This document shows positions 19,258 to 43,892 of a DNA stretch of 53,145 nucleotides, in pieces; position 1 is the stretch's first letter; the number at the start of each line of letters is the position of its first letter. Position numbers and translations under genes: made by a program. A model generated the notes under the pieces. That model made no database searches, was not told the origin of the DNA, and saw nothing but the letters and a program-made list of their open reading frames with translations. This DNA comes from Eubacteriales bacterium (lineage in GTDB: Bacteria; Bacillota; Clostridia; Oscillospirales; Butyricicoccaceae). The stretch is taken from the NCBI GenBank assembly GCA_030524285.1, contig JAUNGQ010000011.1:1-53145 (forward strand), given 5' to 3'.

Positions 19258-19272
19258 TGACAGTTTTTGTCA
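19258..19272. repeat. Palindrome TGACA-GTTTT-TGTCA
   Basis: Overlaps the modC stop codon and lies about 20 bp upstream of the xpt -35 box. It differs at one of 15 positions from the palindrome core at 53059-53073 upstream of the carbamate kinase gene. Confidence 0.4.
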
Positions 19273-20259
19273 ATCCAAAAAGAAATGCAGATTTTCCTCA
19301 TCTGCGGACAGTGTGATGCGCTGTCCACCAATCGGTAGCTCTGGGCTGCCTCTGGCGGTTTCCCACAGCAGAGTGCCATGTGCAGTTTCTATTTCAACCT
19401 GGCTGCTGTAAATCCCCGGCAGGATACGCCTTACAACACCGGAATATGTCAGGCTGTCATTTTCCCTTGCCGGCCTGAGATGCTCCGGACGAATGCCAAT
19501 TGACTGCATAGCAGGCTTTTCCTGCTCCAGATCTTCGGGTACGGGAATAAAATTTCGCATACCGGTCAGCTCTGCACATGCGCGTGTCTTTGGCTGCTTC
19601 CAAAGCTCAATACACGGTCCATATTCTACAATTTTTCCATCTGATACTACCGCTGCATGTGAACACAGCTGCAAAGCCTCGGAAAAATCATGCGTTACCA
19701 GCAGCGATACACCGCTATGCTGCTCCATAACCTCTGCCATCTGTCGCCTCACCTGCCCGCGCAGATGAGTATCCAACGCAGAAAACGGCTCATCCAGCAG
19801 CAAAACCTCTGGCTCCGCCGCCAGCATACGCGCCAAAGCAGTGCGCTGTTTTTGTCCACCGGAAAGCTGCGTCGGGCGAAGCCCAGCCAACCCCGTCAGC
19901 TGAAACCGTTCCAGCAGCATGCTGCATCTTTGCTGCTTTCCCGCTTTTGTACCCGTCATCCCCAGCATGATATTGCCGGCGACTGTTTTATTTTCAAATA
20001 AAGCATACTGTTGGAATAAATAGCCCGCATGACGCTTCTGCGGCGGAAGGAAGAGCTTTTTTGTAGAGTCATACCAAATATCCTGTCCTGCGGTAATGCG
20101 TCCGTCATCGGGCGTCTCAATGCCCGCAATGCAACGTAGGAGCATACTCTTTCCGCTGCCGGAAGCGCCGATCACAGCAGTTGGTTCATCCGGAAACTCC
20201 ACCTGCATGGTAAGAGAAAAGTCACCCAGCTTTTTGCAGATATCCACATACAGGCTCAT
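19270..20259 (-). CDS. modC: Molybdate ABC transporter ATP-binding protein
   Basis: ATPase of the molybdate importer, 329 aa. Walker A GASGSGKSMLLRC, Q-loop region YLFQQYALFENKTV, signature LSGGQKQRTALARMLA, Walker B VLLLDEPFSALD and H-loop LLVTHDFSEAL are all intact. The C-terminal 80 residues (SIGIRPEHLRPARE onward) form a regulatory tail. The start overlaps the modB stop by 4 bp (ATGA). Last gene of modABC; no strong terminator is visible before the xpt promoter, so some read-through into xpt is possible. Confidence 0.9.
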   Translation of the reverse strand: MSLYVDICKKLGDFSLTMQVEFPDEPTAVIGASGSGKSMLLRCIAGIETPDDGRITAGQDIWYDSTKKLFLPPQKRHAGYLFQQYALFENKTVAGNIMLGMTGTKAGKQQRCSMLLERFQLTGLAGLRPTQLSGGQKQRTALARMLAAEPEVLLLDEPFSALDTHLRGQVRRQMAEVMEQHSGVSLLVTHDFSEALQLCSHAAVVSDGKIVEYGPCIELWKQPKTRACAELTGMRNFIPVPEDLEQEKPAMQSIGIRPEHLRPARENDSLTYSGVVRRILPGIYSSQVEIETAHGTLLWETARGSPELPIGGQRITLSADEENLHFFLD

Positions 20260-20936
20260 CGACCCCTTCCCCCTTTCCGGCGTACATATATGCTGTTCCA
20301 GATATTGACTACAAGCATGCCTGCAAACGACATCAGACAGATAATGACAGCCCAGAACAATGCTTCGCTGTAATGCGATTGGCCTGCCTGTACAGCGGAA
20401 TAAATCGCAACTGACATCGTCTGTGTTTTGCCCGGAATATTGCCGGCAATCATAATGGTTGCACCAAATTCACCCAATGCACGGGCAAACGTCAAAACGG
20501 TTCCCGCAGCAATGCCCGGTGCACAACCCGGCAGAGTCACTTGTCGGAAAATATTCCACTCGCTCATGCCCAATGTCCGTCCGGCTGCAGCCAGATCCGG
20601 GTCTAACTGTTCCATCGCGCCCCGTACTGTGCGGTACATCAGCGGAAAAGAAACCACAGTTGCAGCAATCACACCTGCTGTCGGTGTAAAGATAATGGAG
20701 ATATCGAGCGCTTGCAGCAACGCACCAACGGGGCCACGTTTTCCTAACAGCAACAGAAGGGCAAATCCGACAACTGTCGGCGGCAATACCATCGGCAGTG
20801 TCAGAATACCATCCAACAATGCCTGTGCACGATGAATGCGCAGTACCAGCCATGCCGCTGCAATGCCAAGTACAACGGAACATGCCGTTGCCAGCAATGC
20901 AATTTTCAATGTCAGTACAAATGGTGTCACATCCAC
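20256..20936 (-). CDS. modB: Molybdate ABC transporter permease
   Basis: Inner-membrane permease of 226 aa with five or six helices. The EAA loop is RALGEFGATIMIAGNIPGKTQTM, the wording typical of ModB, and the N-terminal LPMVLPPTVVGFALLLLLG is also typical. Overlaps modC by 4 bp; modA lies 37 bp upstream. Confidence 0.92.
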   Translation of the reverse strand: MDVTPFVLTLKIALLATACSVVLGIAAAWLVLRIHRAQALLDGILTLPMVLPPTVVGFALLLLLGKRGPVGALLQALDISIIFTPTAGVIAATVVSFPLMYRTVRGAMEQLDPDLAAAGRTLGMSEWNIFRQVTLPGCAPGIAAGTVLTFARALGEFGATIMIAGNIPGKTQTMSVAIYSAVQAGQSHYSEALFWAVIICLMSFAGMLVVNIWNSIYVRRKGGRGR

Positions 20937-20973
20937 CTGCCTTCACCTGTCCTTCTGGTAAAATTCCACTCCG

Positions 20974-21798
20974 TTACTGCGCCACGCCGAAGCCATATGC
21001 TTCAAATACTGCTGCCGCATCCTCGGACTGCAAAAATGTGAGAAAATCTGTTGCTGCGTTGTTTTCCGCGCCGTCTATCGTCAATGCAATCGGATATACA
21101 ACCGGATCGCAGCTGTCTTCCGGCGCTGCGCAGACAACCTTGACAGCATCCGTCACAGCGGCATCGGTTGCATATACAATACCTGCATCCGCCTCACCTG
21201 TTTCACACCATGCCAGAACCTGACGGACATCCGAGCCAAGCACTGCCTTTGCAGATACGGTATCCCAGATACCCAGAGTAGTCAAAATATCCTTTGCATA
21301 CTGTCCTGCCGGCACGCTCTCCGGATCGCCAATTGCAACTGCTTTCACGGTATTCTCTGCCAAATCATGAAAGGAAGTAACCGCATCGTCATCGGCCGGT
21401 GTTACGAGAACAGCCTCATTTGTCAAAAGATCACTGCGGCTGTCTGTATCAATCAGCTTCTCCTCTTCCAGTGTATCCATCTGCGTCTGTGCCGCAGACA
21501 GGAAGATATCACATGGCGCGCCATTTTCAATCTGGCTCTGCAAATCACCGGAAGACGCATAGTTTGCAGAAATCTCTACATCCGGATTTGTCTCATTGTA
21601 ATCTGCAATCAGCTCGTCCATGCAGTCCGTCATACTCTTTGCAGCATAGACTATCACCTCACCGCCTGCCGTACTGCTGGCACCACTTCCAGTTGTACCA
21701 CTGTCAGTGATATTTCCCGATGAACTGCCGCAGCCTGTCAGCGCCCCCACTGTCATCGCTATTGTCAGAAAACCAATTGCCAATCCTTTGCATTTCAT
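20974..21798 (-). CDS. modA: Molybdate-binding lipoprotein
   Basis: Substrate-binding protein of 274 aa. It has a lipoprotein signal (MKCKGLAIGFLTIAMTVG then ALTGCGSSSG, lipidated Cys at about 24) followed by a Gly/Ser/Thr-rich linker. The mature part has ModA motifs VIVYAAKSMTDCMDELIADY, YASSGDLQSQIENGAPCDIF and ADAGIVYATDA. The ATG at 21798 has GGAGG 8 nt upstream; the longer frame to 21825 lacks one. Transcribed from its own promoter under a ModE-like operator. Molybdate uptake would serve molybdoenzymes encoded elsewhere. Confidence 0.92.
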   Translation of the reverse strand: MKCKGLAIGFLTIAMTVGALTGCGSSSGNITDSGTTGSGASSTAGGEVIVYAAKSMTDCMDELIADYNETNPDVEISANYASSGDLQSQIENGAPCDIFLSAAQTQMDTLEEEKLIDTDSRSDLLTNEAVLVTPADDDAVTSFHDLAENTVKAVAIGDPESVPAGQYAKDILTTLGIWDTVSAKAVLGSDVRQVLAWCETGEADAGIVYATDAAVTDAVKVVCAAPEDSCDPVVYPIALTIDGAENNAATDFLTFLQSEDAAAVFEAYGFGVAQ

Positions 21799-21813
21799 GA
21801 AAAACCTCCAAAT

Positions 21814-21837
21814 CGTTATTCTCATTCAAGTATAACG
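21814..21837. promoter_or_regulatory. ModE-like operator upstream of modA
   Basis: CGTTATTCT-CATTCA-AGTATAACG: 9 bp arms with one mismatch and a 6 bp centre, resembling the proteobacterial ModE site with its CGnTATAT and ATATAACG halves. It covers the modA -10 box and start site. No modE gene is in the window. Confidence 0.55.
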
Positions 21838-22214: not shown

Positions 22215-22718
22215 CTATACAATCGTGACAATTCTACCTTCCCGCAGGGATTTCTGTACATTGATCAGCCTTTGATTTCTGCTGCCCCGGAACCGCAGGG
22301 TCAGATCTCGCTGCGCTTCGATAAACGGGCCATCCACCAGAACATCACACTGCCGGAGCAGCATACCCACTGCCGGATCTTCCAGCCGCAACAGCTGTTC
22401 CCATGTATAACCGGAATACGCCATAATATGCTTGCCACCCTGCTTTAAGACACGCACCAGTTCTGCCAGCGGCTCAGGCTGGCAAAACGGTTCGCCGCCC
22501 GAAAGTGTAACTCCGGAAATCAGTGGGTTTGCCTGTATTTCCGACAAAAGTCGTGAAATCGGCACCACATACCCGGACGCAAAATCGTGCGTCTGCGGGT
22601 TATGGCAGCCGGGACAGCCATGTGGGCAACCCTGTGTAAAAATAACAAAGCGGATGCCGGGGCCATCAACGATGGACTCGTCGATGACTCCGGCAATGCG
22701 GAGGTTATAATCCTTCAT
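22215..22718 (-). CDS. nrdG: Anaerobic ribonucleotide reductase activating protein (radical SAM)
   Basis: Radical SAM activase of 167 aa that installs the glycyl radical on NrdD. The N-terminus NLRIAGVIDESIVDGPGIRF leads to the cluster motif GCPHGCPGCHNPQTHDF (CxxxCxxC), then TLSGGEPFCQPEPLAELV for SAM binding. It follows the small glycyl-radical ORF by 3 bp and is clearly co-transcribed with the nrdD genes. Confidence 0.95.
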   Translation of the reverse strand: MKDYNLRIAGVIDESIVDGPGIRFVIFTQGCPHGCPGCHNPQTHDFASGYVVPISRLLSEIQANPLISGVTLSGGEPFCQPEPLAELVRVLKQGGKHIMAYSGYTWEQLLRLEDPAVGMLLRQCDVLVDGPFIEAQRDLTLRFRGSRNQRLINVQKSLREGRIVTIV

Positions 22719-22721
22719 CTT

Positions 22722-22904
22722 TTATGCTCTATAACGAATATCATGCTTGACACGGTCATGCTCCTCAGCACGCTTCGCGTTGTTAAAACGGTCCAGTGTG
22801 CCTACCAGATAACCGGTAATACGGCGGATACGCTCAAAGCCAACGCCTTCGCCTACCATTTGTTCGCCTTTTTCGTTGTATGTGATGTGATTGAGTTCGT
22901 TCAT
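22722..22904 (-). CDS. Separate glycyl-radical domain of class III ribonucleotide reductase (60 aa)
   Basis: Starts at an ATG at 22904 with AAGGAGGG 8 nt upstream, ends 3 bp before nrdG. The 60 residues end with ERIRRITGYLVGTLDRFNNA then KRAEEHDRVKH. This matches the C-terminal glycyl-radical segment of single-chain NrdD proteins (E. coli has RVCGYLG at the radical glycine and a similar K/R/V/KH tail). The large NrdD upstream lacks this segment. I infer that this mini-protein carries the radical glycine and docks onto NrdD. The frame continues upstream to 23159, but that part overlaps nrdD and is an artefact. Confidence 0.8.
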   Translation of the reverse strand: MNELNHITYNEKGEQMVGEGVGFERIRRITGYLVGTLDRFNNAKRAEEHDRVKHDIRYRA

Positions 22905-22929
22905 TATGATGCCCTCCTTACAAATACTG

Positions 22930-25242
22930 TTATGCCATTGGATTCGGACGGCGGTCTCTTTCCTCATTTGGATCGCCATGATAGCCAATGGTGTCACTGT
23001 TGTGGTTAATATATACACCCAGCTGACGCAGCCGTTCAATGCTGACTGCTTCGCCTTCACGGCGTCCACAGCGCGGGCAAATATCTTCAATAATGCCGGT
23101 ATAGCCGCAAATCGGATCACGGTCAACCGGATGGTTGATGGAACCATAGCCAATGCCACATTCCTTCATATATCGAACAATTGCTTCAAAAGCATCCAGA
23201 TTCTGTGTCGGATCACCGTCCAGTTCAACATAACTGATATGTCCGCCATTGGTCAGCTCATGATACGGCGCTTCCAGCCTAATCTTTTTGAACGCCGTAA
23301 TCGGATAATAAACCGGTACATGGAATGAATTCGTGTAATAATCCCGATCAGTTACACCTTCAATCACGCCATAGCGCTGGCGGTCCAGACGGACAAAACG
23401 TCCGGAAAGGCCCTCTGCCGGTGTTGCAATCACAGAAAAATTCAGGCCGGTTTCACGGCTTTCACGATCCATGCGCTCACGCATACGCCCTACAATGGTA
23501 AGACCCATATGCTGTGCCTGTTCTGATTCGCCGTGGTGTACACCCATCAATGCCTTCAGACACTCTGCCAGTCCGATAAAGCCAATTGTCAATGTGCCGT
23601 GCTTCAGCACTTCACCAATTTTATCATTCGGACCAAGCTTATCGGAATCCAACCATATGCCCTGTCCCATAAGGAACGGATAGTTGCGTACCCGCTTATC
23701 GCACTGAATTTTAAAGCGTGCTTTCAGCTGGTCAACGACCAAATCCATCTTCTTATCCAACTCTTCAAAAAACGCTTCAATATCGCCCTTTGAATTGATT
23801 GCAATTCGCGGCAGGTTGATCGAAGTAAAGCTCAGATTGCCGCGTCCATTGACGATTTCACGGGACGGATCATACACATTGCCAACCACACGAGTGCGAC
23901 AACCCATATAAGAAGCTTCTGTCTCCGGATGTCCCGGTTTATAGTACTGTGCATTATACGGCGCGTCAAGGAACGAGAAATTCGGGAACAGTCGCTTTGC
24001 CGATACACGCATGGAAAGCTTGAACAGGTCATAATTCGGATCTTCCGGATTGTAGTTGACGCCTTCCTTAACCTTGAAAATGTGAATCGGGAAAATGGAT
24101 GTTTCACCATTGCCCAGACCGGCCTCTGTTGCCAGAAGCAGGCTCTTCATAACCAAACGCCCTTCCGGTGAGGTATCAGTACCATAGTTCAGGGACGAGA
24201 ACGGAATCTGCGCACCTGCGCGGGAGTGCATGGTATTCAGGTTATGTACCAGCGCTTCCATTGCCTGATAGGTTGAACGCTCCGTCTCTCTGCGTGCATA
24301 CTTCAATGTAAACGCGATAATGCGTTCCACAGTTTCCTCTGCAACGCCACGTTGCAGCAGACGGTCACGAATCTGTTCCGAGGTTCCGTTATCATCTGCC
24401 AGCACCGGCTTCTCAGCACATGCTTCAATCAACGCCTTTGCCGGCTCCAAACCTTCCTCTTCTACATCAAAGACCTCTAGTGCCTTTGCCAGATTGTCAC
24501 GATAATTGTGCCAATAGGTTTTTCGTACACCTGGCGCCATACTGTAATCGAAATTCGGTACACTCTGACCGCCATGCTGGTCATTCTGATTGGACTGGAT
24601 CGCAATGCAGGCCAATGCAGAATAGCTGCGGATATCATTCGGCTCACGCAGGAAGCCATGTCCTGTCGAAAAGCCATTCTCAAACAGCTTAAGCAGGTCA
24701 ATCTGTGTACAGGTTGTCGTCAAGGTATAAAAATCAAAATCATGGATGTGAATGTCACCCTCACGATGCGCCTTGGCAATGTGCGGCTCCAGCAGGAACA
24801 TTTCGTTAAACTGCTTAGCGCCCTCCGAGCCATATTTCAGCATCGTACCCATTGCGGTATCGCCGTCAATGTTGGCGTTTTCACGCTTGATATCGTTCTC
24901 AATTGCGGATTTAAAAGTTAGATCCTCATACGTCTTCATCAACCCGGTATTCATCTCGCGCTGACGGGAACGCTCATTGCGGTACAGAATATATGCCTTT
25001 GCCGTGCGGGCATGTCCCTGCTCCACCAATATTTTCTCGACCGCATCCTGCACGTACTCAACGGTTGGTGTCGATGTCGGGCTGTGTGCTTCAATATAAT
25101 CTGCCACATCCAAAGCCAGCCGCATAGACATCTGATAATCATGGCCTCCGGAAGCTTCTGCTGCCCGATAGATGGCATTTGCAATCTTTGTCACATCAAA
25201 GAATACACACCTGCCGTCTCTTTTTTCAATCTGCTGAATCAT
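22930..25242 (-). CDS. nrdD: Anaerobic (class III) ribonucleoside-triphosphate reductase, large chain
   Basis: Catalytic subunit of 770 aa reducing NTPs to dNTPs without oxygen. The N-terminal ATP-cone (residues 1-95) begins MIQQIEKRDGRCVFFDVTKI, then the barrel with DIHIHDFDFYTLTTTCTQIDL and PNFDYSMAPGVRKTYWHNYR. Near the C-terminus PICGYTG...ICPRCGRREG provides the Cys pairs of the zinc site. After this the usual RxxGYLxG radical loop is replaced by a different tail (RLRQLGVYINHNSDTIGYHG to NPMA); the expected loop is found on the adjacent 60 aa ORF. Order nrdD-small ORF-nrdG on one transcript. NrdR-type palindrome upstream. Confidence 0.93.
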   Translation of the reverse strand: MIQQIEKRDGRCVFFDVTKIANAIYRAAEASGGHDYQMSMRLALDVADYIEAHSPTSTPTVEYVQDAVEKILVEQGHARTAKAYILYRNERSRQREMNTGLMKTYEDLTFKSAIENDIKRENANIDGDTAMGTMLKYGSEGAKQFNEMFLLEPHIAKAHREGDIHIHDFDFYTLTTTCTQIDLLKLFENGFSTGHGFLREPNDIRSYSALACIAIQSNQNDQHGGQSVPNFDYSMAPGVRKTYWHNYRDNLAKALEVFDVEEEGLEPAKALIEACAEKPVLADDNGTSEQIRDRLLQRGVAEETVERIIAFTLKYARRETERSTYQAMEALVHNLNTMHSRAGAQIPFSSLNYGTDTSPEGRLVMKSLLLATEAGLGNGETSIFPIHIFKVKEGVNYNPEDPNYDLFKLSMRVSAKRLFPNFSFLDAPYNAQYYKPGHPETEASYMGCRTRVVGNVYDPSREIVNGRGNLSFTSINLPRIAINSKGDIEAFFEELDKKMDLVVDQLKARFKIQCDKRVRNYPFLMGQGIWLDSDKLGPNDKIGEVLKHGTLTIGFIGLAECLKALMGVHHGESEQAQHMGLTIVGRMRERMDRESRETGLNFSVIATPAEGLSGRFVRLDRQRYGVIEGVTDRDYYTNSFHVPVYYPITAFKKIRLEAPYHELTNGGHISYVELDGDPTQNLDAFEAIVRYMKECGIGYGSINHPVDRDPICGYTGIIEDICPRCGRREGEAVSIERLRQLGVYINHNSDTIGYHGDPNEERDRRPNPMA

Positions 25243-25349: not shown

Positions 25350-25365
25350 ACACAATATATTGTGT
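25350..25365. promoter_or_regulatory. NrdR box upstream of nrdD
   Basis: ACACAATATATTGTGT, a perfect palindrome and exact match to the known NrdR consensus (ACACWATATATWGTGT). NrdR boxes usually come in pairs about three turns apart; on the gene side a degenerate half-match, ACAAAATATGCGAACA at 25320-25335, sits 30 bp away. This implies control by the dATP/ATP-sensing repressor NrdR, encoded elsewhere. Confidence 0.85.
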
Positions 25366-25701: not shown

Positions 25702-25721
25702 AACCACAATATATTGTGGTT
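25702..25721. promoter_or_regulatory. Distal NrdR-like palindrome
   Basis: AACCACAATATATTGTGGTT, a perfect 20 bp palindrome sharing the CACAATATATTGTG core with the box at 25350, 352 bp further from nrdD and just after the HAD gene stop codon. It might also function as a hairpin at the end of the thi operon, but no T-tract follows. Confidence 0.5.
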
Positions 25722-35089: not shown

Positions 35090-38000
35090 TTACTGATACA
35101 GAATCTTGTCGCAGAGATTCTTAATAATCTGAGCAACCTGTGCTCTTGTAGCGTTAGACTTTGGATCGATGGTTGTGTTAGACATGCCAAGCATCAGTCC
35201 GGTGCCAACAGCCCATGCTACAGAATCCTTTGCATAGCTGCTGATCTTGTCGCTATCGGTATAGCGATCCATCCAGTCTGCATTCTCGATGCTGGTGTCA
35301 ATACCAAGATATCTGCAATAACGCATCATGATAGACGCCATCTGCTCACGGGTAATGCTGTCATTTGGACCAAACTTACCATTGCCATAGCCGCTGACAA
35401 TACCATTCTGGCTTGCCCACTCAACATACGGACCATAGTAGCTGTCTGCCTTGACATCAGAGAACGAGCTTCCCTGATACTGGCTTACATCAACACCATC
35501 AATACGTCCCAGAACAGTGACAAACATTGCACGGTTCATGTTGATCTTTGGTCCAAAAATGCCTTCATCGATACCATAGAAATAGCCTCTGTCGGTAACG
35601 AAATTAACAGCATCATAGAACCAATGATCGGTACGTACATCGGTGTAAGCAGAGGAAGCAGCTTCCTTATAGTAAACACGAATGCTTACATCCTGCTCCG
35701 GCATAACGAAGGTGTACGTAGCTACATAATATGCATCCTCGCTCAACTTTGATACCGGAATAGAAGTGCCGTCCTTGCCGATAACAGATACATAATCGAC
35801 TCTCCAGCCATCATCCGGGTCAACCTTAAAGACAACCTTATCTCCATACGCAGCGGTCTGTCCGTCAATGGATACATCACCGTGCTCAGAATTACTCATG
35901 GTAATGCTGCCACGATCTTCACCAGTGAAGGAGTCGCCGTCGGTATCGATGTTACTCTTGATTACCTCATAGGTTGCAGTTACAACAGTATCTTCCGTGA
36001 TTTCCTCGTAAGATACGTCCCAACCAGTGAAGGTATATCCTGTACGGCTCGGATCTTCTGGAGGTGTTGCGTCACCCAGATATGGAACTTCATCAACCTT
36101 CAGCATATCGCCGTTCCAATCCATGAAGGTTACCGTATAGATTTCCTCCGTGAATGTAGCGGTAACAGTGACATTTTCAGCAGGCATAACGAAGGTAAAC
36201 GTACCTGTTGTGCTGCCTTCATAGAGCGTGTCGCCGCTCTCGCTGACTGCCTCAACATGAACCAACTTGTAGCCATACTTCTCAGCAACAGTAGCTGTAA
36301 CGATATCGCCTACATTGACATCGCTCAGGCTTGTGGTTCCTGCCGTTTCAACAATAGAAGCGCCCTTTGCAAGCTTAATAGTACCAGTATTGGTCGGATT
36401 AATCACGCCAGTAACAGCGTAGTTAATCTTCTCCAGTATTACATTAACCTTAACGCTGTACTCCGGCATGGTAAAGGTATAATCGCCGCCAGACTTGCCA
36501 TTCTGTGCAGTCAGATCAACCTTGTTATTGCCTTCTGTATCCGTTACGGTAACGTCAGCAACCTGCCAACCAGCATCCGGTGTTACGGTAACCGTAACCG
36601 TATCGCCATACTGCTTGTCAGCGGTAGTGGTATCTACACCATCCACGCGAATTGCAGCGCTGCCGGTCTTCACTACCTCTACATTGCGGGTAATCTGCTT
36701 GAAGGTTGCAACAAAGTCTACATTTGCTGCCGGCATGATAAACGTATAATCGCCGCCCTTTTCCAGATCGCTCGGTGTTCCTGTAAAGGTAATTGTCTGT
36801 GTCTTACCGGTTTCGTCCGTGTAGGTTGCGGTTACGGTGTCAATCATATACCCGGTAGCCGGTGTTACGGTTACAGTAGCAGTGCTCTGATACGGGATCT
36901 CGCCTGTCGGAACAGTAACCGTACCGTTGGTATCGGTAGTCTGATTGGTTACCGTATAGCCAATCTGTGTATACGTAGCCACGATGGTTACATCGTATTT
37001 CGGCATGGTGAAGGTACCGGAAACCGGCTGTGTGCCATCACCAAGATCATACGTCAATGCTACAGCTGCGCCAGATGCATCTGTTGCAACAATAGATGTG
37101 ATCTTATAGCCATTGTTCGGAGCTACCTGGAAGGTAGCCTCGCTCTGGTACTCAAAGTCATACTTATTGCTGTCTGCATCTGCCGGAACCTTGATAACGC
37201 CGTTGGCGTTATCTGCACCGGTAACAGTGAAGCTGTCCTTGACGTAGTTTGCCTCTACCGTAACATCCGCTGCAGGCATGGTGAAGTATGCAATAGCAAC
37301 CTTGTTTGTGCTTGAGTAGAGATAATCTACATTGATTTCCTTGCCATCCGCAGTCTGTACGGAGAACGGAACAACAGACAGGAGATATCCAGTCTGCGCA
37401 GTAGCGCGAACGTAAATTCTCTCGCCAACCTTTGCATCTGCAATGCTTGCTGCATACGTGCCGTTGCCACTTCTGGAGGTGTCCACATCAACAGCCAATT
37501 CATCGCCATTGTACGCATCCTCGGTAGTAACAGAGTAAATGATCTTTTCCATTTCTACATGGACATAAACCTTGTGCGAAGGCATGGTGAAATGGTACGT
37601 TGTCGGAACAGTAATCTTGTCTGCCGCAGAAGCAAGTGTACCATCCTGCTGATACAGCATGATTTCAGAATAATACTGATCTGTTATATCACTGGTACCA
37701 TACACAAGCTTCTCATAATCTGCTTGTGTAGCATTTGGCAACTGCATGTAGCCATCGAATTTCTCTGTGCTATACAGGTTATTACCCTTCGCATCTGTCA
37801 GTGCAACAGACTTGATGTAATAGCCAGCTTCCGGTGTAACCGTAAATTCAACTCTGTCGCCAGTTCTAAATGCCTGATTGTTGCCGTCTGTCTCGCCAAT
37901 CCAAACCTTTGCGCCTTCAATTTCCGGCGGGGTCGCAACCACAGGGCTGCTGTTCGGCTCGAATTCAGCATTTACAGTAACGTCTGCCGCTGGCATCGTG

Positions 38001-41000
38001 AAGGTATAAATCTGGTTGCCGTTTTCATCCGTGCTGTCATAAATAACAGGGATGTTTTCTGTAGCAGACTTAACCGTCAATGTCGGCTGCTTATAGCTGT
38101 AGCCAGCATCGCCAATCAGTGTTACCGTAACGGTATCGCCAACGTTAGCTGTGGACGGATCTACTGTGATTGTACCATGTTCTGGTTTCTGTGCAGTAAC
38201 TGTGTAATCGATCTTGCTGTATGCAATCTCAACCTTTACATCTGCTTCAACCATCGTGAAGGAAATCGTAGATTCACCAGCAGCATAAATTTCTGTGCCA
38301 TCGACACCAGTAATAATAGTCTCATGTGTCTTACCACTGCGATCTGTGGTTGTATAGGTTGCCTTAACAGTTGCAGTGTAACCCGGTTCAACATGCAGTC
38401 CAATGTCAACCTGATCACCCTGCTTGATCATCTTATTGGTGGTAGTATCGCCATTGATGGTATACGTACCGCCCTGCGGATTCTCTGTCTCAACAACAGT
38501 TACCTTATACTCAATTGCCTCGGTCAGCACCTGAACGGTAACATTTCCATTCGGCATGGTGAACTGATACTGTACAGGCTCACCTGCAACAGCTTCATTC
38601 GCCTGGGTATACGGAACAACATTGCCCGATGCCGTATCTCGCAGGATAATGCCAGTAATCTTGTAGTTTGCAACCGGAGTAGCGGTCAGTGTTACAACAT
38701 CATCGGTAGCGGCGGTCAAAGTGCCAATCGTAACCTCATTTGCATTTGCCTTGCCATTGATTGTGCCGGTGATTGTAGCATACTCGCTGCTGTTGTCAGC
38801 CCTGGTTACAATGTGTTCCTCAGCCTCGTCAACTGCAATGATCGTCATGCTCTCATTGACGGTATACTTAGCGTCAACCGCAGTACCTAACGTACCATCT
38901 GCGTTATACTGCTTCCAAGTTACATCGCCATAGCCTGGACGTTTTGCCTGTGTTGCATATTCATCCAGTGTAGCTGCTGGAATCGCTGTGCCCTGTTCTA
39001 CTGTGAGGTAGCCCATCAGCTGCTTATCCTGATCCAGCACGCGAACTGTGCACTGATCCTTGACAGCAGTTGCCGTGACTGTTACATCAGCTGCCGGCAT
39101 AACGAAGGAATATACATCCTTGCCATCCTCTGTTTTCACAAAGGTAAGCGGAACATAGGTTTCAACACCATTGCTGGTATAGGATACCAGAACACTGTCG
39201 ATGACATAATTGTCGTTTGCGGCAACAGTAAATGTTACTGTCTCGCCAACTTCTGCCGAATTCGCAACCGTAACAGTTGTGTTTGTCTCTGTCTTGGTAA
39301 TGCTGTAAACATTCTGCTTATAGTTGATATGCAGCCATGTCTCACCAGCAGGCATATTGAAGTCATACGCACCGTTTTCATCTGGAGTCAGTTCGCATCT
39401 TACCAGTGCGCCATTGATTTCGGTTACATAGTAAACGTCATCAACAACATACTTGTCGTCTGCTCCCTGTGTCGTCAGGTTCAGTGCTGTACCAGCCTTC
39501 AGTGTCGCTACATTATCGTCTGGAATCTTAACTGTTCCATTGTCATATGTCAGTTTGCCCTTTGCATTCAGTGCAGAAATGTGCAGGGTATACTCCTCGC
39601 CTTCCCACTGAGCAACATAGGTGATGACCTTATCCTGGAACAGACCTGCAAGCCAGTTGCCTACTTCCTTGGATTCCATTGGAGCAAGCGTGTCCTCTTC
39701 ACCTTCAAGCTTCCAGTTAATAAACTTGTAGCCTTCTCGTTCCGGTGCAGCAGGCGCTTTATAGCTGCCGCCATACGGAACTTCCTGATAATCAACCAGT
39801 CTACCCTGCCCGTCAACAAACTTGACAACATAAGCCTCTGCGGACCAGATTGCCTTCAATGTCATATCAGCTGTTACAGTAACCGTAGCGCCTGCGGTAT
39901 AGGTCAGGCCGCCTGTCGTATCCTGCCAGCCAACAAACTTATGACCAGACTTGGTTGGAGCATCAGCAAGCGTGATCTGTTCGCCATAGTTTACAGTAAC
40001 GCTATCAATTGCAGCTGGATCACCGTCATCGGTATCATAGCTTACGGTGTACTCGTCAGCTTCATAGATTGCATAATAATCTACAGAGCTGGAAACTGTG
40101 ATTTCACTTCCTGGCAGATAGCCCGTAGTTGCAGACTGATCGGCAGCCCAGAACTTAGCGGTCTTACCATCAACTCCCGGAATCTCCGGAGTTGTTACTG
40201 TATCGCCAGCCTTAGCTTCGATATAGTTGACCAGATAACCGTTTGCAAAGAAGCGTACAACAACTTCTGCATCCGAATATACAGCAGTAAAGGTGGTGTC
40301 TGCGGTAATTGCTACCTTTTCACCAGCAGCATAGACATGGTTATCTACATCGCTCTGCCAACCAATAAAGGTCTTGCCTTCCTTAGCGGTAACTTCCGGC
40401 AGCGTAACGATCTCACCATATTTTGCTGTTGTATCAGCAGCATCGCTTGTACCATCATTCCCTACCTCATACTTTACCTCATACTCATCCTCTGTAAACT
40501 GAGCTGTAAAGGTAGTATCTGCCTTAAACGAGGTTGTTGTGGAGAATGCAACATTGTTTTCATCATACCAGCCGTCAAACTTCTGTCCTGCCGGAGCATC
40601 CGGAGTCGGTGCAGAAGCAATTGTGCTGCCATATGGAATTTCCTTCACTGCTACCTGTGTGCCGTTTGCCAGCTGGAAGGTAACAGTTACCTGCTTATCC
40701 TCATAAACCGGTGTGAACGCTGCTGTAAGATTTCCATTGCCAGCCACTTCAACAACGTTTTCGTCCAGCGTAACGGTTTCACCATCCGCATACTGATGTC
40801 CGTTCTTATCGGTCCAGTAAGCTATGGTCTGGCCGTCCTTTTCAGGAGCCTCAAGCGTAACCGTGTCGCCAAAAAACTTGCTGTTGTCGGTCTTGTCTCC
40901 TGTGATGACAGTGACAGCCTTCGCTGTATACTGTGCATAGTAAACAGCATAGTCCTCTGTTACCTCTACAGGGAATGTTACTTCGTCAGTGCCTTCCTTA

Positions 41001-43597
41001 TCAGAAGTCCACTTGTCAAAGGTATAGCCGAACTTTTCCGGAACTGTCGGAGCCTTGATTTCTCGTCCCTTTTCCAAGCTCTGGCTATCAAGCACATATC
41101 CGGTTACCGCATCGGCAAATACTACCGTACCATAGTTGGACTCGGTTGTCAGATAGGCCGTAATGGCAACCTCATCTGCCGGCATCGTGAACGAATAGGT
41201 ATATTTACCGTTCTCTACCGTCTTGAGTACAACTGGAATTGGACCAGTAGTAGCATCCTCGCCCGTAACCGTGATGTAGTCAATCTTCTGATTTTGGGCT
41301 GTATCCGGTGTTACAGTAAATGTAACCGTTTCACCTACAGACGCCTCCTGTGTGGGATCAATGACAACAACGCCAGATTGTTCCGCGCTTACACCATCAA
41401 CCATCAGTGCAGACGTAATCTTGTACTTGTTCGCCTCGAACTGTGCAAAGACTTCTGCATTTGCAGTAATATTGGTAAGATCAACATCATTACCGTTCAC
41501 ATCTCCCCACTTTTTGAAGGTATAGCCAACCTTAACAGGCGTATATTTCGGTTCAGCAGTGCCGCCCTTAGCTACTGTCTGAATGTCAAACAGCTTGTCG
41601 TCAGAATAGAACTTGACAACATACTCGCCCTGTGTAAAGTGTGCAGTGTAGGTAACATCGCCGGTTACAGTGACTTCGATTGTCTCGCTGAGATAGTAAG
41701 AACCATCAGAGCCGGACCAGTAAGCGAAATCATAGTTTGTATTCGCGGTTGCAGTCAGTTCAGCGGTTGCTTCATACTCATACGGACCATCGCCTTCTGT
41801 GGTACCAGCATCGGCCGGAGCAGCAGCAGTTGTTACCGTATACGACTTCTTTTCATACGCAGCTACATACGTTGCATTTTCCTGAATGTTTGTGATAGTA
41901 TCGCTACCGTCAACAGTGTCATCTTCATCATTCACATTCTTCCAAATGCCATTCTCATAGCCAGTTCTGTTCGGAACTTCCGGAGCAGTTACTGTACCAT
42001 CATAATCAACCGTTTTGGTTTCCAGAATGGTGCCCTCTGCGGTCTTGAAGGTTACAGTATACCGATTCGTCTCGTAAACCGGTGTGAACGCTGCGCTGTA
42101 AGCTGTACCATCGTAGGAAACAACATCCTCGTTCAGTACAACTTCTGCACCGTCATCATAATGACGGCCTTCCGCGTCAGTCCAGTAAGCAAACGTCTTG
42201 CCAGCCGGAATCGTGATATCTTCGGAATCAAGCGTAACTGTCTCGCCGTATTTTTTTGTCTCAGGAGTCGTGTTCTCACCAATGGTTACTGTGACATCCG
42301 CAGCCGTATATACTACGTTGATAACCGTATCTTCGGTAATAGCCGCTGTCAGATCACCCCAAGAACCTTCATAGCCGGTCTTATTCGGAATTGCAGGAAG
42401 GCTATCCTGATCTACCGTTTGTCCATCTTCAACCTGAACTGTGTCGACTACCTTTCCGTCAGCCTTGAAGGTTACGGTATGGTAAACAGCCGCATTCTTG
42501 GTATAATGTGCGGTGTAGGTAACCTCTTCCGCCGGTGTTTTAACAGTCCATACCTTTTCGTTGCTGGTATTACCATTGGAGTCAGACCAGTACGAGAAAG
42601 TATATCCATCTACGTCTTTAGCGGTCAGCGTAACCTCTGTGCCAGCTACATAGCTGTCGCCAGATGTAATCGTATCAGCGGAAACTTCGTCTTTGAGTTC
42701 TTCCGGATCAGCCGTAACGTTAACCGAATATGTCGGATCTGCCGGAATTGCTTCAAACGTTGCACTTACCGTGACATCACCTGCCGGCATAACGAAAGAA
42801 TATCCGCCATTTACTGTCGGATTGACAGAAACGGCACCATTATTTACGCTTACACTGGAAACTGTATAGCCATCTTTCGGTGTAACCGTAAAGGTAACCG
42901 TATCGCCTGCTTCCGCTTTCTCTGTACCAAGCTCAATTTCGCCGTTTTCGAGAGTATCATCAACTGCGACATCGTACTCCTGCACAGTCTCCTGCACATT
43001 CTTGATTTCCGTATACTTTAACGTATTCTGGAAACGATATGATGTACCGCCGAGAACAGAGCTTCCAACCTCTACATCATCACAGAAAACCGTGTAGGTC
43101 TTGCCGTCGTTAGTTGCGCCTACGGGGTAGGTATAGTAACCCTCAACATACTGGCTACCCGCCATCACAGTAGCAAAATCGATCACACCTGTTGTTGGAT
43201 CAGTAGGATCTTGTAAAATCCATCTAACCTTCAGCGTATCAGTATAATCCACCACTGGAGCCTGCTGGTAATTCAACGGTACCCATGCGTTGCTCGGATC
43301 TCTAGCAGATTCGTCGATCACTGCATCGTCTGCAACAGTCGCGCTTGTGGTGTAATACCAACTCGCAGATGTTACTTCGCTCAAGCTCGTATCGCCAGTT
43401 TTGTCATATGCTTCAGCCAAAGCAGCTGCACTTAGCGTAGCCTGGGTTTTCGAGTCGGTGTCTTCCGGTGTAACCGTAATATAACCGTTAGCATCCGGGT
43501 TGCTTGTACTATACGCAAACACTTCAACCGGTAATGTGGTGACACACATCGCCAAAACCATCAGTAACGCAAGCGGGCGTCTTAGCCATTTTTTCAT
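35090..43597 (-). CDS. Giant secreted repeat protein with C-terminal SLH domains
   Basis: About 2835 aa from the ATG at 43597 (AAAGGAGG 11 nt upstream). The signal peptide is MKKWLRRPLALLMVLAMCV, cleaved near EVFAYS. The body is a chain of beta-rich modules of two kinds. InlB B-repeat/Listeria-Bacteroides type, in the first half, has units like VTFKTAEGTILETKTVDYDG followed by GY...W. A second kind, mostly in the second half, ends each in F-[TV]-MP-A-x-x-V-T-V-x-A; I count 14. Three SLH domains fill about the last 185 residues (YTDVRTDHWFYDAV; FSDVKADSYYGPYVEWA; YTDSDKISSYAKDSVAWAV), so it is anchored non-covalently to secondary wall polymer. No LPXTG. Likely role: surface adhesion or stalk; function not shown. 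Confidence 0.9.
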   Translation of the reverse strand: MKKWLRRPLALLMVLAMCVTTLPVEVFAYSTSNPDANGYITVTPEDTDSKTQATLSAAALAEAYDKTGDTSLSEVTSASWYYTTSATVADDAVIDESARDPSNAWVPLNYQQAPVVDYTDTLKVRWILQDPTDPTTGVIDFATVMAGSQYVEGYYTYPVGATNDGKTYTVFCDDVEVGSSVLGGTSYRFQNTLKYTEIKNVQETVQEYDVAVDDTLENGEIELGTEKAEAGDTVTFTVTPKDGYTVSSVSVNNGAVSVNPTVNGGYSFVMPAGDVTVSATFEAIPADPTYSVNVTADPEELKDEVSADTITSGDSYVAGTEVTLTAKDVDGYTFSYWSDSNGNTSNEKVWTVKTPAEEVTYTAHYTKNAAVYHTVTFKADGKVVDTVQVEDGQTVDQDSLPAIPNKTGYEGSWGDLTAAITEDTVINVVYTAADVTVTIGENTTPETKKYGETVTLDSEDITIPAGKTFAYWTDAEGRHYDDGAEVVLNEDVVSYDGTAYSAAFTPVYETNRYTVTFKTAEGTILETKTVDYDGTVTAPEVPNRTGYENGIWKNVNDEDDTVDGSDTITNIQENATYVAAYEKKSYTVTTAAAPADAGTTEGDGPYEYEATAELTATANTNYDFAYWSGSDGSYYLSETIEVTVTGDVTYTAHFTQGEYVVKFYSDDKLFDIQTVAKGGTAEPKYTPVKVGYTFKKWGDVNGNDVDLTNITANAEVFAQFEANKYKITSALMVDGVSAEQSGVVVIDPTQEASVGETVTFTVTPDTAQNQKIDYITVTGEDATTGPIPVVLKTVENGKYTYSFTMPADEVAITAYLTTESNYGTVVFADAVTGYVLDSQSLEKGREIKAPTVPEKFGYTFDKWTSDKEGTDEVTFPVEVTEDYAVYYAQYTAKAVTVITGDKTDNSKFFGDTVTLEAPEKDGQTIAYWTDKNGHQYADGETVTLDENVVEVAGNGNLTAAFTPVYEDKQVTVTFQLANGTQVAVKEIPYGSTIASAPTPDAPAGQKFDGWYDENNVAFSTTTSFKADTTFTAQFTEDEYEVKYEVGNDGTSDAADTTAKYGEIVTLPEVTAKEGKTFIGWQSDVDNHVYAAGEKVAITADTTFTAVYSDAEVVVRFFANGYLVNYIEAKAGDTVTTPEIPGVDGKTAKFWAADQSATTGYLPGSEITVSSSVDYYAIYEADEYTVSYDTDDGDPAAIDSVTVNYGEQITLADAPTKSGHKFVGWQDTTGGLTYTAGATVTVTADMTLKAIWSAEAYVVKFVDGQGRLVDYQEVPYGGSYKAPAAPEREGYKFINWKLEGEEDTLAPMESKEVGNWLAGLFQDKVITYVAQWEGEEYTLHISALNAKGKLTYDNGTVKIPDDNVATLKAGTALNLTTQGADDKYVVDDVYYVTEINGALVRCELTPDENGAYDFNMPAGETWLHINYKQNVYSITKTETNTTVTVANSAEVGETVTFTVAANDNYVIDSVLVSYTSNGVETYVPLTFVKTEDGKDVYSFVMPAADVTVTATAVKDQCTVRVLDQDKQLMGYLTVEQGTAIPAATLDEYATQAKRPGYGDVTWKQYNADGTLGTAVDAKYTVNESMTIIAVDEAEEHIVTRADNSSEYATITGTINGKANANEVTIGTLTAATDDVVTLTATPVANYKITGIILRDTASGNVVPYTQANEAVAGEPVQYQFTMPNGNVTVQVLTEAIEYKVTVVETENPQGGTYTINGDTTTNKMIKQGDQVDIGLHVEPGYTATVKATYTTTDRSGKTHETIITGVDGTEIYAAGESTISFTMVEADVKVEIAYSKIDYTVTAQKPEHGTITVDPSTANVGDTVTVTLIGDAGYSYKQPTLTVKSATENIPVIYDSTDENGNQIYTFTMPAADVTVNAEFEPNSSPVVATPPEIEGAKVWIGETDGNNQAFRTGDRVEFTVTPEAGYYIKSVALTDAKGNNLYSTEKFDGYMQLPNATQADYEKLVYGTSDITDQYYSEIMLYQQDGTLASAADKITVPTTYHFTMPSHKVYVHVEMEKIIYSVTTEDAYNGDELAVDVDTSRSGNGTYAASIADAKVGERIYVRATAQTGYLLSVVPFSVQTADGKEINVDYLYSSTNKVAIAYFTMPAADVTVEANYVKDSFTVTGADNANGVIKVPADADSNKYDFEYQSEATFQVAPNNGYKITSIVATDASGAAVALTYDLGDGTQPVSGTFTMPKYDVTIVATYTQIGYTVTNQTTDTNGTVTVPTGEIPYQSTATVTVTPATGYMIDTVTATYTDETGKTQTITFTGTPSDLEKGGDYTFIMPAANVDFVATFKQITRNVEVVKTGSAAIRVDGVDTTTADKQYGDTVTVTVTPDAGWQVADVTVTDTEGNNKVDLTAQNGKSGGDYTFTMPEYSVKVNVILEKINYAVTGVINPTNTGTIKLAKGASIVETAGTTSLSDVNVGDIVTATVAEKYGYKLVHVEAVSESGDTLYEGSTTGTFTFVMPAENVTVTATFTEEIYTVTFMDWNGDMLKVDEVPYLGDATPPEDPSRTGYTFTGWDVSYEEITEDTVVTATYEVIKSNIDTDGDSFTGEDRGSITMSNSEHGDVSIDGQTAAYGDKVVFKVDPDDGWRVDYVSVIGKDGTSIPVSKLSEDAYYVATYTFVMPEQDVSIRVYYKEAASSAYTDVRTDHWFYDAVNFVTDRGYFYGIDEGIFGPKINMNRAMFVTVLGRIDGVDVSQYQGSSFSDVKADSYYGPYVEWASQNGIVSGYGNGKFGPNDSITREQMASIMMRYCRYLGIDTSIENADWMDRYTDSDKISSYAKDSVAWAVGTGLMLGMSNTTIDPKSNATRAQVAQIIKNLCDKILYQ

Positions 43598-43892
43598 GAC
43601 CCATTGTTCCTCCTTTGTTTTTATTTGCAAAGGCTTTTTCCATGGTCCTTGCAGTCCCATGTTGTTAGGCGCGGTACAGCTGCACCGCTTTCCCAAATGT
43701 ATAACCTGTAAAACATCCATTAGATCGGGCAAATCCTCAGATGTGAATTTTTGCAGTTTCTTCGATATTCAATTGTGAAATGTATCAGGTGGTTATACGT
43801 GCCTGACTGTCCGCTTGTGTACAATTCCCAGGGAAATTTGATACAATAGGACGCATCTTCATGCCTACTTATCGTCTAATCGTAAAAATATA
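43598..43892. other. Upstream region of the SLH protein gene
   Basis: About 300 bp with no gene. It contains a stem-loop GCGGT-ACAGCTGC-ACCGC near 43670-43690, in the probable 5' leader of the SLH gene. No promoter matches consensus well enough to call. Confidence 0.4.

Follow-up and report, generated by a model that had tools for sequence, protein, structure and literature searches.

Class III reductases described in the literature covered here carry the glycyl radical on the catalytic chain. In P. copri NrdD, the glycyl-radical domain (GRD) is the C terminus (residues 676 to 739, with Gly711) of one 739-residue chain, as described in PMC11226230. Small free-standing radical proteins are known from a different glycyl-radical enzyme: according to PMC8683613, GrcA/YfiD of E. 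coli and Y06I of phage T4 are spare parts for pyruvate formate-lyase (PFL), which keeps its own GRD and is repaired by GrcA, and the same article suggests spare parts for glycyl-radical enzymes beyond PFL. Ribonucleotide reductases (RNRs) in pieces are known as well. The class II reductase NrdJa/NrdJb is split in two chains (PMC9669993 and PMC4520616), and PMC3653736, in whose main text the word “glycyl” is absent, treats phage RNR genes with interruptions, such as nrdA of Aeh1 and nrdD of phiAS4, chiefly from the angle of homing endonucleases, introns, and inteins. In the open-access literature searched (subscription papers and preprints lay outside it), we found no description of a class III reductase whose GRD forms a chain of its own, nor of phage genes encoding only a GRD. 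Database curators may already be aware of the split form.

In the 53,145-nt stretch of DNA analyzed here (the window), which comes from a gut bacterium, nrdD, a 60-amino-acid (aa) GRD open reading frame (ORF), and nrdG form one minus-strand run in that order (Table 1). The 770-aa NrdD chain covers positions 1 to 533 of the 562 positions of the Pfam model NRDD (638 bits), and the 60-aa protein covers positions 533 to 562 (31.2 bits versus a curated cutoff of 26.2); the two chains are therefore complementary at one joint. This bears out the original prediction that the radical segment of this NrdD resides on a separate 60-aa protein, and the ribosome-binding site and the position just before nrdG that had been claimed for the small ORF were found as well. 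When the proteins were compared with PDB chains at the sequence level, P. copri NrdD (8p23) was the sole match of the 60-aa protein within an E-value limit of 10; the alignment spans chain positions 707 to 738 (E value, 1.5e-7). PF01228, the PFL-type glycine radical domain, did not match the 60-aa protein at E values up to 1. Among the Pfam, NCBIfam, and PHROGs matches at E values up to 1, there was no dedicated model for a free-standing GRD, and this form is hidden by current annotation.

Table 1. Features of the nrd locus in window coordinates
Feature	Position	Strand	Basis
Catalytic NrdD chain of 770 aa, lacking the glycyl-radical loop	22930..25242	-	ORF and profile matches
60-aa glycyl-radical protein, ATG start, predicted radical glycine Gly31 (RRITGYLVG)	22722..22904	-	NRDD match, P. 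copri alignment
Ribosome-binding site AAGGAGGG	22912..22919	-	7 nt upstream of the small-ORF ATG
nrdG, radical-SAM activase	22215..22718	-	TIGR02491 above cutoff; start 3 nt past the small-ORF end
Large-chain tail from Gly730, GEAVSIERLRQLGVY...TIGYHGDPNEERDR, probable decayed radical-segment copy	22933..23055	-	Resemblance in split loci
Perfect palindrome CACAATATATTGTG, upstream of nrdD	25351..25364	.	Motif count
Second CACAATATATTGTG copy, perfect palindrome	25705..25718	.	Motif count

Compared with the systems above, the window enzyme is like P. copri NrdD in its ATP-cone, barrel, radical cysteine, loop (RITGYLVGT.DR), predicted activation by NrdG, and probable zinc knuckle but differs in that everything beyond this knuckle is encoded by a gene of its own. 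Like GrcA/YfiD, the 60-aa protein is a small free-standing glycyl-radical protein that would act in trans with a radical-SAM activase; unlike GrcA/YfiD, it has a GRD of the NrdD kind, and its partner large chain lacks a radical loop of its own. NrdJa/NrdJb is also a reductase in two chains but belongs to class II, and Aeh1 nrdA and phiAS4 nrdD are likewise RNR genes in pieces. A split by an intein or homing endonuclease does not fit the break in the window, where only 25 nt separate the two ORFs, which lie in different frames. In class I RNRs (NrdA/NrdB), the radical is kept on a separate ferritin-like subunit and is passed on by long-range transfer; the window enzyme would likewise have its radical on a separate subunit, whereas its short glycyl loop would insert directly. 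Judged by its barrel, cysteines, and activase, the window enzyme is still a class III reductase, but one that departs from the single-chain form.

All sequence evidence is consistent with the second part of the original prediction, a two-chain class III reductase with the radical on the small protein. We consider it highly likely that the locus encodes a two-chain class III (anaerobic) RNR, in which the 60-aa protein is an obligate subunit that receives the radical from NrdG and binds the large chain in trans. The sequences establish the split, its conservation, the co-occurrence of its two parts, and its standing as the sole reductase found in several near-complete genomes; docking, activation by NrdG, rescue, and a likely benefit of the split under oxygen are inferred. 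The 770-aa chain would supply the ATP-cone, the zinc knuckle, the sites for nucleotides, and C448 as the cysteine that forms the thiyl radical, and the 60-aa protein would supply the glycyl-radical loop (Gly31) and the C-terminal tail. The loop would insert into the large-chain barrel in trans. NrdG from the same operon would load the radical on Gly31, probably while the small protein is bound to the large chain, as may be supposed from the account of GrcA and PFL in PMC8683613. The Gly31 radical would then oxidize C448, and reduction would proceed as in single-chain NrdD. Oxygen would cleave only the small subunit, so that a cheap, replaceable 60-aa protein would be lost and the 770-aa chain spared.

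The 770-aa chain comprises an ATP-cone (residues 4 to 92), the NRDD match (residues 121 to 735), and a tail running onward to residue 770. C448, in an MGCR motif, aligns with the MGCR cysteine of P. copri, and the second active-site cysteine, C178, is retained; both are invariant across 48 alignment rows. The zinc-site cysteines, predicted to be kept, are present in part: C712, C722, and C725 remain, and Asp709, which is invariant in alignment A6, stands where P. copri has the fourth zinc Cys. Five fused relatives in the alignment share the pattern of Asp709 and three cysteines. The zinc region spans large-chain residues 704 to 725 (window positions 23068 to 23133), and its three cysteines typify the clade. 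According to profile matches, the NrdG activase adjoins the split nrdD in the window.

The large-chain tail had been described as unrelated looking, which probably does not hold when other loci are considered. In many split loci, the tail consensus GE.V..EKLR.L..Y...EE.DR resembles the small-protein start GEGV.FERIRRITGY...EE.DR. By shuffling, the tail resembled the small protein of the same locus at a P value of <0.05 in 21 of 39 split loci and stayed above this value in 18; these loci are mutually nonindependent, and the window's own locus lies outside the set. In alignments A2 to A4, MAFFT lined up the small proteins with the tail of the large chain or with other places. The resemblance of the tail to the small-protein start suggests that the end of the gene was duplicated in part and that the upstream copy then decayed.

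A search for a conserved glycyl-radical motif in the 770-aa chain led to this same tail, which in the window contains TIGYHGD, a Gly-Tyr pair. Were TIGYHGD the radical site, the small protein would be regulatory; such a role would agree with the look of the tail as a decayed radical segment and with the resemblance, by eye, of GYHGD or GYCGD to a glycyl-radical motif. Across split homologues, however, the position reads GYHGD, GYCGD, GQCGN, CCDEN, or CSCDEN or is absent, and some split large chains have short tails such as LRKKYPNMP. The lack of conservation of the tail glycine argues against the tail as the radical site; we rejected the motif on this ground and consider a regulatory small protein very unlikely. 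In the small protein, Gly is present in 74 of 74 genome copies and 78 of 78 viral copies, free or paired, although the scan patterns partly select for Gly.

The common operon, the short gap, and the difference in frame would also suit a joining of the two ORFs by programmed frameshifting, readthrough, or protein splicing. Against this, the small ORF begins with a start codon of its own behind a Shine-Dalgarno site, the FERIRR motif lies anywhere between 48 and 312 nt beyond the large-chain stop among 66 loci, and the GRD is found on another contig in some genomes. The varying distances and the GRDs on other contigs make frameshifting or readthrough unlikely, and we regard a joined chain as extremely improbable.

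The window genome is 73% complete and consists of 23 contigs, a state in which a sequencing error, an assembly artifact, or a decaying pseudogene might be suspected. The layout in which a GRD-less large chain precedes a short ORF recurs, however, in 11 of 12 same-genus genomes (the window's included), the sole miss being a 65% complete genome (G002). It is also present in Massiliimalia timonensis Marseille-P3753 and bacterium 1XD42-1, the strain-titled split records; most others are metagenome assembled. The small gene is under strong purifying selection, with a mean pN/pS ratio of 0.087 (36 pairs from 9 same-genus loci) and, in its core, a pN of 0.006 versus a pS of 0.534 among same-genus loci. 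Conservation and selection rule out a pseudogene or assembly error, for which we see a vanishingly small chance.

The split is distributed beyond the genus. The 60-aa query found a match in 43 of 60 relatives, fused forms counted. In a genome scan with one genome per species, the best 80 of at least 584 confirmed loci included 66 in which a short GRD ORF closely follows a GRD-less large chain, 8 with a short ORF lacking an adjacent large chain, and 6 fused loci; the ranking favors split forms, and these proportions are therefore no frequency. A NrdG match starts within 1,200 nt in 46 of the 60 pairs among these best genome loci that have more than 1,500 nt of downstream sequence. By record title, the carriers of these best loci include Clostridia, Bacilli/Erysipelotrichaceae, Desulfovibrio, Fibrobacter, and Anaerobiospirillum. 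Two samples chosen independently of the small protein comprised 89 class-level and 91 phylum-level genomes, all at least 95% complete except the window's own. At the class level, none of the 89 genomes but the window's own was split; split forms are in the minority.

GRD-less NrdD and a separate GRD occur together. The two samples pooled contain 157 different genomes with an NRDD match, 6 of which (G000, G414, G453, G434, G468, and G479) have a GRD-less NrdD, defined here as a chain whose NRDD match begins at position 1 and ends at 531-540. A separate GRD is encoded by each of these six, versus 5 of the 151 other genomes (G387, G399, G438, G452, and G474); Fisher's test gave a P value of about 2e-8, computed without correction for relatedness, and the co-occurrence counts, which derive mostly from metagenome-assembled genomes, are phylogenetically nonindependent. 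Weak partial NRDD matches (e.g., 6 to 504 in G458, 12 to 432 in G464, and 8 to 431 in G496) were left out of the sample counts. Two 45-aa GRD matches at contig ends in G406, which are probably fragments of fused NrdD, were left out of the separate-GRD count. Among 38 genomes chosen mostly by small-protein match, a separate GRD was found in 26 of 26 GRD-less genomes.

The RNR inventory of 38 genomes, mostly picked by small-protein match, was based on searches for PF13597 and PF02867; the latter represents class I and II large subunits, and its control search was positive in 11 of 14 named genomes. Eleven of the 38 genomes (G000, G001, G004, G005, G006, G008, G009, G011, G012, G039, and G051) yielded no RNR besides the split pair, with no other PF13597 match and no PF02867 match; 10 of these 11 are 91 to 100% complete. 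De novo deoxynucleoside triphosphate (dNTP) supply is normally essential. With no second RNR found in these genomes, the split pair is very probably functional. A second or third fused NrdD exists beside the split pair in G010, G007, G020, G032, and other family members. In two Desulfovibrio genomes (G314 and G320), the GRD-less nrdD is directly followed by nrdG and the GRDs were found on other contigs, from which they would have to act in trans.

The original prediction had likened the small protein to GrcA/YfiD. This analogy calls for refinement: in the window, the small protein looks obligate rather than like a repair part, and repair-type free GRDs beside an intact NrdD exist as well. Free GRDs of about 90 aa with an N-terminal extension are present in 16 of 393 class-level genomes, and a fused NrdD is also listed in 13 of the 16 (none at threshold in G091, G145, and G618). 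A partner with its own radical glycine, the GrcA-type feature, was seen only with these about 90-aa forms beside fused NrdD. Five genomes (G399, G600, G687, G671, and G699) have operons of fused nrdD, an about 90-aa grd, and nrdG, in G399 followed by nrdR; loci L312/L322, L321, L323, L333, and L335 carry these operons. Such operons, with a complete NrdD and a separate radical domain, are a possible evolutionary intermediate. In two loci, of Ruminococcus flavefaciens FD-1 and L162, a rubrerythrin gene adjoins the free GRD on the same strand, which suggests a link to oxygen defense; the free GRD is directly followed by rubrerythrin at L100:2607-3487 and L162:3338-4116. By analogy with GrcA, the about 90-aa free GRDs beside intact NrdD would look as expected for an NrdD spare part. 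These 16 genomes, the five operons, and the two rubrerythrin loci also favor a spare-part role in the window, where the small protein would rescue the large chain's own radical site after oxygen damage. The window large chain stops at NRDD position 533, however, and the sole GY motif in its tail is unconserved among split homologues, so that we consider this role very unlikely and retain the obligate radical subunit for the window.

To follow the evolution of the split, a FastTree phylogeny of 149 large chains (77 split and 72 fused) was inferred with the GRD and tail cut off. The tree requires at least 14 changes between fused and split forms, 12 of which are imposed by starred branches; with shuffled labels, the mean is 49.7 changes. 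Rows L311, L270, L287, L307, and L229 carry long-branch warnings, 5 of the 149 rows are duplicates of others, split loci are overrepresented in the sample, and large chains of less than 600 aa (L052, L070, L079, L097, and L103) were left out. Given at least 14 changes in this FastTree phylogeny, long-branch warnings included, a single origin of the split is not supported; some of the changes may be refusions. Separate origins are clearest for G479, in which the gene order is a 692-aa NrdD, an NrdG2-type activase, and a 45-aa GRD, and for G414/G453, which have a GRD-less chain of 694 aa. In G468, NrdD (L309) ends with FERIHRITE and a stop, right before the radical-glycine position, and the separate GRD (L308), of 90 aa with an N-terminal extension, lies on another contig.

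GRDs are also carried by phages. Among the best 80 of 326 confirmed loci on IMG/VR contigs (L163 to L242), the GRD is free-standing in 77; two of the remaining three loci are fused, and the third is a split pair accompanied by nrdG. Since only the top-scoring viral loci are counted, these proportions are no frequency either. A large chain is present elsewhere in the fetched stretch in 5 of the 77 free-GRD loci, the stretches being mostly without a reductase gene. Four viral contigs (L181, L183, L211, and L239) share the IMG number 2561511128. Eight of 10 proteins tested from viral GRD loci matched phage families (terminase twice, tape measure, DNA polymerase, two tail proteins, PAPS reductase, and integrase), and two had no match; the viral label of the other loci is that of IMG/VR. 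One free GRD in a Desulfovibrio genome adjoins terminase subunits. Eggerthella phage EL753P1 (OP172808.1; L243) has a GRD-less nrdD and, about 400 bases on, a small GRD gene whose reading frame is broken by a frame change and whose product is listed as a hypothetical protein. In a C. difficile phage record, by contrast, the annotated nrdD covers the GRD match.

Phage GRDs point to a strategy of raising the dNTP supply in anaerobic hosts. We see about an even chance that the NrdD radical domain is a detachable and exchangeable part that has been repeatedly freed, as an obligate subunit, as an oxygen-repair part, and as a phage gene reloading the host reductase during infection. If so, a phage protein of some 45 to 90 aa would control the dNTP supply in anaerobic hosts. 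For NrdD, the split bears on the suggestion of spare parts beyond PFL made in PMC8683613. With a natural two-chain form, loop docking, NrdG activation, and oxygen damage would become separable and open to direct tests with wild-type proteins.

The neighborhood of the operon has further features. The perfect palindrome CACAATATATTGTG occurs twice in the window versus 0.27 expected, and 3 of 100 shuffles also gave two copies; we take these palindromes to resemble NrdR boxes. Downstream of the nrd operon, window positions 19270 to 21825 (minus strand) hold molybdate ABC transporter genes, in which modA and modB scored above the NCBIfam cutoffs and are accompanied by an ABC ATPase. A giant surface protein is encoded at positions 35090 to 43732 (minus strand) by a 2,880-aa ORF that contains InlB-like and Listeria-Bacteroides repeats as well as S-layer homology domains at the C terminus.
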